This document shows positions 16,830-21,652 of a stretch of 64,000 nt of DNA, one piece after another. The stretch comes from Motilibacter deserti (GTDB lineage: Bacteria; Actinomycetota; Actinomycetes; Motilibacterales; Motilibacteraceae): positions 204,121 to 268,120 of the forward strand of contig NZ_JAANNP010000003.1 of NCBI RefSeq assembly GCF_011250635.1, read 5' to 3'. A program made the translations under genes and the position numbers. The notes beneath the pieces were generated by a model. That model was given only the letters and a program-made list of their open reading frames with translations. It was not told where the DNA came from and made no database searches. Within the stretch, counting starts at the first letter, position 1. Every line of letters begins with the position of its first letter.

Positions 16830-19301
16830 GTGGGCGAAGACCGGGCAGGCGCAGCGGTCGAGGTCGGCCGCGCCTCCGCCGGGACGTCGGGCAACGGCGC
16901 CGCCGCTAGAGCCGGCGGTGCGTCCGAGAGCGCGCCGGCCGCGCTCGCCCCGTCGGCACGCCCGTCGCGTCCCGCGCCCGAGCCCCCGGCGCCGCCGGCC
17001 CGGCCCGAGGCGCCGGCGACCGCCCGCGTACGCAAGCGGCTCGCGCGGCTCGGCGCCCAGCGCAGCGGCACCAACCCGGTCCTCGAGCCGCTGTTCCGGC
17101 TCGTCCGCGAGACCCAGCCCAAGGCCGACCTACGCGACCTCGAGCGCGCCTACGCCGTGGCCGAGCGATGTCACCGCGGCCAGCGGCGCAAGAGCGGCGA
17201 CCCCTACATCACCCATCCGCTGGCGGTCGCGACGATCCTCGCCAGCTTCGGCATGAACCCCCCGACCCTGTGCGCGGCCCTGCTGCACGACACGGTCGAG
17301 GACACCGACTACACCCTCGAGCAGCTGCGGGCCGACTTCGGTGACGAGGTCGCCGGCCTGGTCGACGGCGTGACCAAGCTCGACAAGGTCAAGTACGGCG
17401 ACGCCGCCCAGGCCGAGACCGTGCGCAAGATGGTCGTCGCGATGTCGCGCGACATCCGCGTCCTCGTCATCAAGCTCGCCGACCGGCTGCACAACGCCCG
17501 GACCTGGCGCTACATCCCGGCCGAGAAGGCCGAGCGCAAGGCACGCGAGACGCTGGAGATCTACGCCCCGCTGGCCCACCGGCTCGGCATGAACAAGGTC
17601 AAGTGGGAGCTCGAGGACCTCTCGTTCGCGACGCTCTACCCCAGCCTCTACGAGGAGATAGTCAACCTCGTCCGCGATCGGGCGCCGAGCCGCGACGAGT
17701 ACATCGCCGGCGTCATCGACTCGGTCCAGCAGGACATGACGGCGGCGAAGATCCGCTGCACGGTCACCGGTCGGCCGAAGCACTACTACTCCGTCTACCA
17801 GAAGATGATCGTGCGCGGCCGCGACTTCGCCGACATCTACGACCTGGTGGGCATTCGCATCCTCGTCGACACGGTCCGCGACTGCTACGCCGCCCTCGGC
17901 ACGGTCCACGCCCGGTGGAACCCCGTTCCCGGGCGTTTCAAGGACTACATCGCGATGCCGAAGTTCAACATGTACCAGTCGCTGCACACGACGGTGATCG
18001 GCCCCGAGGGCAAGCCCGTCGAGCTGCAGATCCGGACGCACGCGATGCACCGGCGGGCGGAGTACGGCGTCGCCGCGCACTGGAAGTACAAGGAGGACGC
18101 CACCGCGGTCAGCGGCGGCGGCAACGACGACGGCTCGACCGGCGACATGAGCTGGCTGCGGCAGCTGCTCGACTGGCAGAAGGAGACCGAGGACCCGGGA
18201 GAGTTCCTCGACTCGCTGCGCTTCGACCTGTCCAGCGGCCAGGTCTACGTCTTCACGCCGAAGGGTGAGGTCGTCGCGCTGCCGACGGGCTCGACCCCGG
18301 TGGACTTCGCCTACGCCGTCCACACCGAGGTCGGCCACCGCACGGTCGGCGCCCGGGTCAACCAGCGCCTCGTCCCGCTCGAGTCCAAGCTCGAGAACGG
18401 CGACACCGTCGAGATCTTCACCTCCAAGGCGACCAACGCCGGGCCGTCGCGGGACTGGCTGACCTTCGTCGCGTCCCCCCGGGCGCGCAACAAGATCAAG
18501 CACTGGTTCTCCCGCGAGCGGCGCGAGGAGGCCATCGAGCACGGCAAGGACGCGCTCGCCCGCACGCTGCGCAAGCAGGGCCTGCCGCTGCAGCGGCTGC
18601 TGTCCAGCGAGGCGCTGACCGCGCTGGCCAACGAGCTGCGCTACCCGGACATCTCGGCGCTCTACGCCGCCATCGGCGAGAACCACGTGAGCGCCCAGTC
18701 CGTCGTCGCCAAGCTCGTCCAGTCGCTCGGCGGCGAGGAGGCCGCCGAGGAGGACATGGCCGAGGCCACGGTCCCGACCGCGAGCCACCTGGCTCGCGGC
18801 CGCGCCCGCCCGGCCGGCGACCCGGGCGTCGTCGTCAGCGGCGCGCCCGACGTCTGGGTCAAGCTCGCCCGTTGCTGCACTCCGGTGCCCGGCGACCCCA
18901 TCGTCGGCTTCGTGACCCGCGGCAACGGCGTCTCGGTGCACCGCGCCGACTGCGTCAACGTCGCCAGCCAGTCCCTCTCGCCCGAGCGCATGGTCGGGGT
19001 CGAGTGGGCGCCGACGTCGCAGAGCGTCTTCCTCGTCCAGATCCAGGTCGAGGCGCTCGACCGCAGCCGCCTGCTCTCGGACATCACGCGGGTCCTCTCG
19101 GACCAGCACGTCAACATCCTGTCCGCGTCGGTCACGACGACGCGTGACCGGGTGGCGGTCTCCCGCTTCACCTTCGAGATGGGCGACACCACCCACCTCG
19201 GCCACGTGCTCAAGGCGGTCCGCGGCATCGAGGGCGTCTATGACGTCAACCGGCTCACCAGCCCCGGCGCCGGCTCCACGCCCGCCCCGACCCCGGTCTG
19301 A
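16830..19301 (+). CDS. rel: Bifunctional (p)ppGpp synthetase/hydrolase, Rel family
   Basis: Stringent-response enzyme that makes and degrades (p)ppGpp. The 823-residue protein has an 85-residue Ala/Pro-rich disordered N-terminus, the HD hydrolase domain ([22 protein letters not shown] at about 153), the synthetase domain ([17 protein letters not shown] at 369-372, the signature of bifunctional enzymes), TGS ([21 protein letters not shown]), the zinc-finger/CC region ([19 protein letters not shown]) and a C-terminal ACT domain. Both catalytic centres look intact. GTG 16830 is 80 bp after apt; TAGACT at 16795-16800 could be its own -10 box. Confidence 0.96.
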
Positions 19302-19353
19302 CGCCCGTACGGACCCGGTCTGACGCGCACGGGCCCGGACTGCACCCCACCCT

Positions 19354-19379
19354 CGCTGATCATGCACATGTGGCGAGTT
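19354..19379. repeat. Left arm of a perfect 26-bp inverted repeat flanking the AbiEi-like gene
   Basis: Its central 20 nt, TGATCATGCACATGTGGCGA, recur in reverse complement at 20372-20397, and all 26 positions match. The 12 bp inside this arm (TGTCTATAGACC) are a degraded version of the TATCCACAGC inside the other arm. A C-rich flank (CCCCACCCT) on the outside is also shared. Confidence 0.85.
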
Positions 19380-19395
19380 GTCTATAGACCACGGG

Positions 19396-20313
19396 TCACC
19401 GCCAGTCGCTGGCCGGCCCGCGGGTAGGAGGCATGCCGAGCAGTTCGGCGACGACCTGCTCGAAGCCGGTGCCGCCGCCGAGCACGTGCTCCTTCGTGAC
19501 GACGGCGACGTCCCAGCCAGCCCTCCGCAACAGAGCGCGCCGCTCCTGGTCGGAAGCGCGGTCGTCCGCCGACGAGTGATGGGCCTCGCCGTCGTACTCG
19601 AGCGCCTTGCGCCTCGCCTTCCACCCCATGTCGAGACGGAAGCTGCGGTCCCCGATGCGTACGCAAATCTGCAGCTCGGGGGCCGGGAAGCCGGCGTCGT
19701 GCAGGCGCAGCCGGCAGCGTGACTCGCCCCACGACTCGCTGCCCGCGTCGGCAAGGACAAGCACTTCCCGCGCCTGCACCACGAAGGCGTGCTCCGCCCA
19801 GCGGACAATTCCCGCGCGCGCCTCGTCCAGGTCGAGTACGCCGGTGTGGGCCAGCGCGTCGAGCGCGCAGAGCGCGTCCGGTCGTGGCAGCCAGCGGGCG
19901 AGATCGATGCCGGTCCGCAGCGGCGAGGTCACGGCGACGCCGTCAAGCAGCCGGAGGTCGACGGGGGAGAGGTCTTGGACGAAGCACCTGATGCCACGGC
20001 GCCGGACGATCGTCGTTCCCCGAGGCACCGCGATGTCGAGACGGGGTGGGTCGTCGCGGCGGGCCGGGTCGCGGGTGTCGACGCCGTACAACCACGCGGC
20101 ACCTTCGCGGCAGAGCGCCGCACCGGCCGGCAGTGCCAGCGCGACGGCGGCGCATCGCAGCTCGAACGAGTCCGGTACGTCCGCCCCCACGTACACGCCG
20201 TCCAGCACGCGACGGACGAGCCGGGCAGAGACCAGCCCCCGGAGCTCGCCGGGCGTGAGGCCGGCAGCCAGCGCGGATCTGCGGGAGAAGGGGCGGTCGA
20301 GCAGAAGGGGCAT
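19396..20313 (-). CDS. AbiEi-like / DUF559 (very-short-patch-repair-endonuclease-like) protein
   Basis: The 305-residue protein has an N-terminal AbiEi antitoxin-type winged helix (FSRRSALAAGLTPGELRGLV, then GVYVGA), a central region typical of actinobacterial AbiEi/DUF559 proteins (TSPLRTGIDLARWLPRPDALCALDAL) and a C-terminal PD-(D/E)XK-like domain: ESRCRLRL, then RLDMGWKARRKALEYDGEAHH with D and E-x-D, ending RRAGWDVAVVTKEHV. Such proteins are abundant, often solitary and of unknown role; no toxin gene is adjacent. It sits alone inside a 1.04-kb unit bounded by a 26-bp inverted repeat, and its ATG is inside a perfect hairpin with no clear Shine-Dalgarno. Expression may be very low. Confidence 0.75.
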   Translation of the reverse strand: MPLLLDRPFSRRSALAAGLTPGELRGLVSARLVRRVLDGVYVGADVPDSFELRCAAVALALPAGAALCREGAAWLYGVDTRDPARRDDPPRLDIAVPRGTTIVRRRGIRCFVQDLSPVDLRLLDGVAVTSPLRTGIDLARWLPRPDALCALDALAHTGVLDLDEARAGIVRWAEHAFVVQAREVLVLADAGSESWGESRCRLRLHDAGFPAPELQICVRIGDRSFRLDMGWKARRKALEYDGEAHHSSADDRASDQERRALLRRAGWDVAVVTKEHVLGGGTGFEQVVAELLGMPPTRGPASDWR

Positions 20314-20341
20314 GGGGCCACGGTGGTGGCCCCATGCCCCT
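20306..20341 (-). promoter_or_regulatory. Perfect 16-bp hairpin covering the start codon of the AbiEi-like gene
   Basis: AGGGGCATGGGGCCAC pairs without mismatch with GTGGCCCCATGCCCCT around a 4-nt loop. The start codon of the minus-strand gene (20311-20313) lies inside one arm, so the mRNA would hide its own initiation site unless it is unfolded or transcription starts inside the hairpin. Confidence 0.65.
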
Positions 20342-20364
20342 GCAGAACGCCGTCCGCCGTCAGC

Positions 20365-20373
20365 TGTGGATAA
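20365..20373 (-). promoter_or_regulatory. DnaA-box-like 9-mer at the right inverted repeat
   Basis: Read on the minus strand this is TTATCCACA, identical to the classical DnaA box, and it overlaps the inner edge of the right repeat arm by 2 nt. A single box outside an origin may titrate DnaA or be coincidental. Confidence 0.4.
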
Positions 20374-20397
20374 CTCGCCACATGTGCATGATCAGCG
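20372..20397. repeat. Right arm of the 26-bp inverted repeat
   Basis: Exact reverse complement of 19354-19379. Together the arms enclose 1044 bp with one gene. On the outside lies an uninterrupted run of eight G followed by GA-rich sequence, so a target duplication cannot be recognised. Confidence 0.85.
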
Positions 20398-20422
20398 GGG
20401 GGGGAGGGAGGGTGGGGGAGGG

Positions 20423-21652
20423 TCAGCGCGAGAACTCGGCGAGCGCGCGCTCGGCCTCCTCCAGCCACGAGCGACGGGCCTCGATGGCCGACTCGGCGTC
20501 CGTGGCCTGCTTCTCCTTGCCGGCGGCGCGGGCCTTCTCGGCCTGGTCGGTCAGCTTGTCGATGGCTGCCCGCAGCTGCGTGACGGTGGCCTCGGCGCGG
20601 GCGCGCGCCTCGGGGTTGGTCCGCCTCCACTCGTCCTCTTCGGCGGCGCGCACGGCGTCCTCGACCCGGCGCAGCCGGCCCTCGACGCGGTCACGGTCGC
20701 CGCGCGGGACGTGGCCGACCGCCTCCCACTTCTCGGAGATGGCGCGGAGCGCACGGCGCGCAGCCCGGTGGTCGGTGATCGGGAGCAGCTGCTCGGCCTC
20801 GGCGGCGATCGCCTCCTTGGCCTCGAGGTTGGCCCGCTGGTCCGAGTCACGCTCGGACATCACCGCGTTGCGGGCGCTGAAGAAGGCGTCCTGTGCGGCG
20901 CGGAAGCGCGTCCACAGCGCCTCCTCGTCGTCGCGGCCGGCCCGGCCGGCGGCCTTCCACTGCGACATGAGGTCACGGAAGCGGCCGGCCGTCGGGCCCC
21001 ACTCGGTGGACTCGGAGAGCTCCTCGGCCTGCTTGACCAGGGCCTCCTTGCGCACCTTGGCCTCGGCCCGCTCGGCGTCGAGGGCCGCGAAGTGCTGGCG
21101 GCGGTTGCGGTCGAAGGTGGACCGCGCCCCGCTGAAGCGCTTCCACAGCTCGTCGTCGGTCTTGCGGTCGAGCCGCGGCGCGGCCTTCCACTCGTCGAGC
21201 AGCGTGCGGAACCTCTCGCCCGTGGCCTTCCACGCCGTCGCCTCGGCCAGGGACTCGGCCTCGGTGACGATGTGCTCCTTCGTCTCACGGGCCTCGTCGC
21301 GCGCCTTCGCGCGGGCGGCGTCGGACTCGGCCCGGCGCTGCTCGGCGAGCGAGGAGAGCGAGTCGAGCCGGCCGCTGAGGGCGTCGAGGTCACCGACGGC
21401 GTTGGCCGTGGCGATCGCGATGCGCAGCCGCTCGATCGAGGAGCCCGCGTCCTTGGGGCCCAGCTCGGCCTTGCGGACCCGCTGCTCGAGCAGCGCGACC
21501 TCCGCCACCAGCGCGTCGTACTTGCGGGCGAAGTAGGCGAGGGCCTCGTCGGGCGTGGCACCGGGGTAGGAGCCGACCGGGCGCTCCACCTCCCCGACAC
21601 GCACATAGACGGTGCCGTCCTCGGCCACCCGGCCGAAGTCGCTGGTTGTCAT
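20423..21652 (-). CDS. DUF349 domain protein, helical repeat
   Basis: A 409-residue soluble, almost entirely helical, highly charged protein. After an N-terminal segment (VAEDGTVYVRVGEVERPVGSYPGATPDEALAYFARKYDAL) come three to four DUF349 repeats recognisable by the recurring pattern W-K-A-x3-G/A-R-x3-D-D-E-L-W-x-R-F (for example DELWKRFSGARSTF, EEALWTRFRAAQDAF, KWEAVGHVPRGDRDRVEGRL). The family is widespread in actinomycetes and has no established function. It begins 5 bp after the cyclophilin gene and is expected to share its transcript. Confidence 0.88.
   Translation of the reverse strand: MTTSDFGRVAEDGTVYVRVGEVERPVGSYPGATPDEALAYFARKYDALVAEVALLEQRVRKAELGPKDAGSSIERLRIAIATANAVGDLDALSGRLDSLSSLAEQRRAESDAARAKARDEARETKEHIVTEAESLAEATAWKATGERFRTLLDEWKAAPRLDRKTDDELWKRFSGARSTFDRNRRQHFAALDAERAEAKVRKEALVKQAEELSESTEWGPTAGRFRDLMSQWKAAGRAGRDDEEALWTRFRAAQDAFFSARNAVMSERDSDQRANLEAKEAIAAEAEQLLPITDHRAARRALRAISEKWEAVGHVPRGDRDRVEGRLRRVEDAVRAAEEDEWRRTNPEARARAEATVTQLRAAIDKLTDQAEKARAAGKEKQATDAESAIEARRSWLEEAERALAEFSR

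Follow-up and report, generated by a model that had tools for sequence, protein, structure and literature searches.

A gene for an AbiEi-like protein with a predicted nuclease domain lies, in Motilibacter deserti, between the two halves of a short palindrome that is scattered through the same genome. AbiEi-Vsr-type genes are associated with lineage-specific inverted framing repeats in many actinomycete lineages, and where this was tested, copies of the framing repeat are scattered through the respective genome, usually as inverted pairs. Since related genes across actinobacteria are framed likewise by different scattered repeats, gene and repeats have the look of selfish partners, a "repeat plus enzyme" pair. 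We consider it probable that a partnership resembling REPIN/RAYT, but assembled from unrelated components, has its source locus in this gene and its arms, with an AbiEi-Vsr-type nuclease standing in for the HUH tyrosine transposase. From these associations we infer that the protein binds, cuts or spreads the repeats.

Layout of the window locus

The window is the 64,000-nucleotide stretch of M. deserti DNA (genome G000) that was analysed; positions are those of the window. The features of the locus are as follows.

16830..19301, + strand: left neighbour, relA/spoT, convergent with the nuclease gene (open reading frame list and neighbourhood comparison)
19354..19379, + strand: left perfect 26-bp arm, forming one half of the scattered palindrome (inverted-repeat match; 49 genome copies)
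19354..19387, + strand: left 34-nt REP-like unit, ending in TTGTCTATAG, consensus TTGTCCACAG (consensus of 23 full palindromes)
19396..20313, − strand: gene for a 305-aa protein with an AbiEi-like N-terminal part and a predicted Vsr/EDxHD-like PD-(D/E)XK nuclease domain, about residues 190-295 (open reading frame, profiles, alignment and model domain)
20306..20341, no strand: 16-bp perfect palindrome with a 4-nt spacer over the start codon of the nuclease gene, AGGGGCATGGGGCCAC / GTGGCCCCATGCCCCT (inverted-repeat match)
20364..20397, − strand: right 34-nt REP-like unit, ending in the DnaA-box-like TTATCCACAG (consensus of 23 full palindromes)
20372..20397, − strand: right perfect 26-bp arm (inverted-repeat match)
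20423..21652, − strand: right neighbour, gene for a DUF349 protein, co-directional with the nuclease gene (open reading frame list and neighbourhood comparison)

The initial annotation had described perfect 26-bp inverted arms with imperfect similarity beyond them, and this description stands: CGCTGATCATGCACATGTGGCGAGTT at 19354-19379 (+) recurs as its exact reverse complement at 20372-20397, within a wider match of 48 nt at 83% identity (19347-19394 / 20357-20404). The 20-bp arm core has exactly two matches in the window and none in window shuffles. The annotation was likewise correct in placing a single AbiEi-like gene between the arms (305 aa, PADLOC AbiEi 2e-12), in assigning to its product a PD-(D/E)XK-like domain (fold Z 10.3 to I-Bth0305I and 9.0 to Vsr), and in reporting neither toxin partner nor transposase. 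The genes flanking the nuclease gene are relA and DUF349; no toxin or transposase was found as a neighbour, nor, specifically, an AbiEii nucleotidyltransferase toxin, and with no toxin the gene is not part of an AbiE pair. Further arm copies, for which it proposed a genome search, do exist (49 matches, mostly gene-free palindromes), and its view that the arms mean more than the gene annotation proved sound.

The start-codon palindrome (20306-20341) is retained in the related genome G001 with symmetric changes on both sides, and is a candidate self-operator or translation control. A separate 13-bp direct repeat, CCCGGTCTGACGC, sits by the stop of relA, a little ahead of the left arm (19292-19326; copies at 19292 and 19314, 22 bp apart).

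A palindrome dispersed through the genome

Allowing up to three mismatches, the 22-bp arm core has 49 matches in the M. deserti genome (5.0 Mb, 269 contigs), while a reversed control has none. Most matches form inverted pairs about 47 bp apart, giving palindromes of about 69-78 bp (∼76 bp) at some 25-30 scattered sites, from which 23 full palindromes were collected; some sites carry single arms only. In each palindrome CGCTGATCATGCACATGTGGCGAGTTGTCCACAG is joined to its reverse complement through a short loop, 6-10 nt long as a rule and 1 nt in a single case. In the 34-nt unit consensus of the 23 full palindromes, positions 13-17 are variable and the stretches 5-12 (GATCATGC) and 18-34 (TGGCGAGTTGTCCACAG) nearly invariant; the consensus carries no GTAG tag, and one unit by itself does not make a stem-loop. 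At the window locus both palindrome halves are present in this orientation, and the gene stands in place of the loop: the inverted repeat there is the split form of the genome-wide short palindrome.

By a rough gene call, 15 palindrome sites lie between tandem genes, 12 between convergent and 2 between divergent genes, with none inside genes, and many directly follow stop codons. Such dispersal through intergenic space as inverted pairs was seen here and also in other lineages. Intergenic sites, often between convergent genes and directly after stop codons, are also what would be expected of transcription terminators or RNA hairpins, selected for structure and having no special link to the gene. 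However, a search for co-variation between the arms of one element, as a test for RNA hairpins, found none: arms share 29.1 matches within one element and 28.9 between different elements, and this lack of extra likeness within an element means that base pairing is not what selection keeps. Furthermore, copy number is higher in genomes with a framed gene, and the tandem direct arrays in which repeat copies often stand in genomes G002, G004 and G033 are unable to fold as hairpins. We regard the terminator explanation as scarcely credible.

The inner end of most units is TTGTCCACAG or TTATCCACAG, both in the window (19378-19387, 20364-20373) and in the dispersed copies. This end is DnaA-box-like, and thus dozens of such boxes have been spread by the repeat.

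A predicted nuclease with a homing-endonuclease fold

Pfam matches of the window protein all fall below curated cut-offs (MTES_1575 REase 6e-7, AbiEi_1 0.0013, DUF559 0.064). Among 20 aligned homologs, MTES_1575 (REase) is found in 18, DUF559 in 11, AbiEi_1 in 10 and AbiEi_4 in 7. The invariant residues of this alignment include E197, E239, G242 and D255, with D228 and D241 near-invariant and a histidine at 245/246 in most sequences; these probably map onto an E-D-x-H-D active site.

A phmmer search of PDB with the single protein gave no meaningful match; the alignment profile alone found one, I-Bth0305I (3r3p), at 5e-4. The full-length structural model is poor (mean pLDDT 45.8) and only its C-terminal nuclease domain is usable, but this domain matches I-Bth0305I with Z 10.3 and Vsr with Z 9.0. 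On the strength of the model, the C-terminal domain is a predicted nuclease with the Vsr / I-Bth0305I homing-endonuclease fold. Likeness to TnsA (Z 5.9) and other distant matches in the fold list were too weak to use. The genome holds no near copy of the protein, its closest relatives there being three distant paralogs at 34-37% identity. Y1_Tnp (PF01797), the RAYT family, has no match in the five Motilibacteraceae genomes (0/5), compared with 5 of 14 control genomes.

Gene position and repeat change in the Motilibacteraceae

In four of five family members (G000, G001, G004 and G002) relA and DUF349 flank the nuclease gene, which is absent from G003; given this shared site, it has mostly been inherited in place. 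Its frame changes among the four. The arms are kept in G001; in G004 four direct copies of CGTGATCATGCAC(n)TGG flank the gene at one end and three inverted copies at the other; and in G002 the frame consists of 22-bp units in tandem, whose core is GATCATGCA. The G002 gene (L100, G002:C2, 2244-3150), which lies between inverted repeat arrays, is reversed relative to DUF349 when compared with G000, G001 and G004.

These results bear on whether the locus is a non-autonomous cassette or an invertible segment, its arms being the ends and an unrelated recombinase or transposase moving or flipping it. Perfect inverted arms around a single gene, and an orientation that differs in G002, are as this would predict, yet the gene has no near copy in its own genome, keeps its position across the family, and is outnumbered by a gene-free palindrome in many copies; the cassette would moreover need a separate unrelated recombinase in each lineage, all acting on one gene family. 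We judge it very unlikely. The initial annotation's 1-kb mobile cassette moved by another enzyme must accordingly be given up, as the dispersed item is the short gene-free palindrome and the gene stays at its relA-DUF349 site in all four genomes. A 1-kb cassette in many copies is ruled out, there being no near protein copy in the genome and the gene keeping its place in the family. Gene and arms kept in place, with no other copies, had been named there as the sign of an immobile unit: a relative does keep both in place, but 49 arm copies exist. For the invertible segment that it also considered, the reversed G002 gene, an orientation difference between genera, gives weak support, although at 42% identity this could also be an independent insertion. 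What we retain, as a conditional statement, is its suggestion that an endonuclease product may assist spread.

Repeat loss accompanies both gene loss and gene decay. There are 358 copies of the core GATCATGCA in G004, against 14 in its gene-less sister G003, and over 200 kb of syntenic DNA 14 against 0; this comparison yielded no clean empty site, as the stretches that hold the sites are unaligned or rearranged. Arm decay has gone further in G001 (2.8 versus 1.7 core mismatches). Orthologous sites in G000 and G001 carry elements that are shared, missing, half or full; this species-level sampling shows differences of presence or absence and of half or full elements only, and it captured no insertion that shows both a target duplication and a clean empty site.

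The G001 ortholog (L087/L103, G001:C6, ∼1856-2830) seems damaged, with about 60 codons missing internally and its stop codon lost, and its open frame extends into the right arm. In G003 the relA-DUF349 interval (G003:C10, ∼473-478.5 kb; L119, 12.9-18.5 kb) holds, among others, an amidase and a short-chain dehydrogenase gene, both named by eye from the sequence with no family search, and no nuclease gene.

Homologous genes framed by repeats in other actinobacteria

As a framing score we took the best inverted repeat between the 450-bp flanks of a gene, with a threshold of at least 18. In a first set of 33 homolog loci, which were selected for protein similarity alone and include the window locus, 15 reach the threshold; in a replication set of 14 loci, drawn later by protein similarity alone and scored by the same rule, 9 do so, with scores up to 60. 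Random positions reach it 0-8 times per 2000 (0-0.4%), and the outer flanks of the loci in both sets never score above 14. About half of the homolog loci are without a flanking repeat at this threshold.

The framing persists between lineages while the repeat sequences turn over completely: repeats of the GATCATGCA type occur in several families, CTTCTCCATGATCAAC in family f20, AAACCCTTCACTCG in G060, TGAGAGAGCRATCC in Cellulomonas avistercoris and GATCTTGACCTTTTCGGGG in G180. Outside the Motilibacteraceae, four repeat families are spread across the whole of the genome to which each belongs, mostly in the form of inverted pairs. The framing repeat of G061 has 148 copies, in 46-bp pairs, and frames two paralogs; one repeat of G060 has 68 copies, in 43-bp pairs, and frames one paralog, while a second repeat family frames another; and that of C. 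avistercoris (G098), the single relative returned by a protein scan of genome contigs, has 150 copies. In the other genomes tested the framing repeats have 0-2 copies, with the exception of G044 and G076, which belong to the same genus as G061 and share its repeat. The density of the core GATCATGCA is higher in genomes with a GATCATGCA-framed gene (Mann-Whitney p = 4e-5, a value that serves only as a guide since the genomes are related and not independent).

Recurrence of this kind weighs against the idea that the palindromes belong, as miniature elements, to some other transposase (an IS family) and that the gene was merely caught between two copies. Their size, near-perfect arms and the single arms at some sites are indeed MITE-like, but with about 30 sites among thousands of genes a two-sided capture is unlikely even once, and here one gene family is framed again and again, in many lineages, by unrelated repeats. 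Accidental capture is, in our opinion, highly improbable.

The repeats might instead be binding sites of an AbiEi-like DNA-binding regulator, comprising self-operators and a dispersed regulon or nucleoid sites, in which case the nuclease domain would be defensive or secondary and the repeats would not be mobile. AbiEi is linked to inverted-repeat operators, a link that would fit self-regulation only. Regulator domains do occur in these AbiEi-type proteins (AbiEi_4 7/20, AbiEi_1 10/20), arms without co-variation (29.1 vs 28.9) fit recognition of DNA sequence and not RNA pairing, and the tandem direct arrays of G002, G004 and G033 would suit such a protein. However, just 2 of the 29 sites have divergent genes on either side, and many directly follow stop codons; the gene has repeats on both sides, its 3' side included; and complete turnover of the repeats with persistence of the framing is the behaviour expected of self-propagating repeats. 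A regulator is thus an unlikely explanation of the whole pattern.

Relation to known systems and proposed mechanism

The closest parallel to the partnership that we favour is with REPIN/RAYT (TnpA-REP) systems and REPtrons, which share short intergenic repeats that are for the most part inverted pairs, an enzyme gene of low copy number with repeat copies on its flanks, lineage-specific repeats, and paralogs with separate repeat families per genome (PMC3116915, PMC8266576, PMC3733652). The enzyme there is an HUH tyrosine transposase, whereas here the enzyme is MTES_1575/AbiEi-like and includes a Vsr/EDxHD-type nuclease domain; the units there are GTAG-tagged and palindromic, whereas here they are untagged and singly form no stem-loop. 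With the wrong enzyme and no GTAG tag, this is not a RAYT system by membership. TIRYTs and TIRtrons also have an enzyme gene between long inverted repeats and moderately abundant dispersed families, but their enzymes are tyrosine transposases related to RAYTs (PMC3733652), in contrast to the PD-(D/E)XK-fold nuclease here. EDxHD/Vsr-like homing endonucleases such as I-Bth0305I share the C-terminal nuclease fold (Z 10.3; profile E 5e-4) and a gene inside its apparent, putative own recognition palindrome; the present gene differs in having no intron or intein, a fused AbiEi-like part, and dozens to hundreds of dispersed repeats. With the AbiE type IV toxin-antitoxin system the protein shares its AbiEi-like N-terminal and central region, but here a nuclease domain is present and AbiEii is not a neighbour. 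There is a fair chance that this is a separate class of system, distinct from known kinds. In the open-access papers searched, no precedent was found linking AbiEi/DUF559-type proteins with REP-like repeats.

In the mechanism that we propose, the AbiEi-like N-terminal part would recognise the repeat and the Vsr/homing-type nuclease domain would nick or cut there, after which host repair or copying of the released palindrome could spread it to new intergenic sites. By analogy with REPIN/RAYT, paired inverted copies would be the spreading form and the enzyme gene would live among copies of its substrate repeat; linkage between enzyme and substrate would be maintained by the flanking copies, which could double as self-regulatory sites.

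More tentatively, these loci could represent an actinobacteria-wide selfish class in which an AbiEi-Vsr (EDxHD-type) nuclease, with no transposase, creates and maintains dispersed palindromes through cutting and host repair. Such a class may have arisen independently of RAYT/REPIN and would link homing endonucleases, AbiEi-type antitoxins and REP elements; we think this possible, if somewhat doubtful. DUF559/MTES_1575/AbiEi genes occur several per genome in many actinobacteria and are annotated only as unknown, antitoxin-like or restriction-like, and if they are partners of dispersed palindromes, this large orphan family would gain a function. The proposal would also provide a source of REP-like repeats in genomes without a RAYT, and would mean that unrelated enzymes gave rise to the REPIN life-style on two occasions. 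The question of how REPs spread would then become testable with a different type of enzyme.

Further framed loci and repeat arrays

In C. avistercoris, contigs C10, C17 and C22 have runs of tandem repeat units at their ends, at a spacing of ∼24-34 bp; given this position, longer arrays may break the assembly. A second distant paralog in M. deserti (L047, C244:17802-18407) is framed by another inverted repeat, TCACCACGGCCGAGC, which has few dispersed copies (12 versus 2 in the control).
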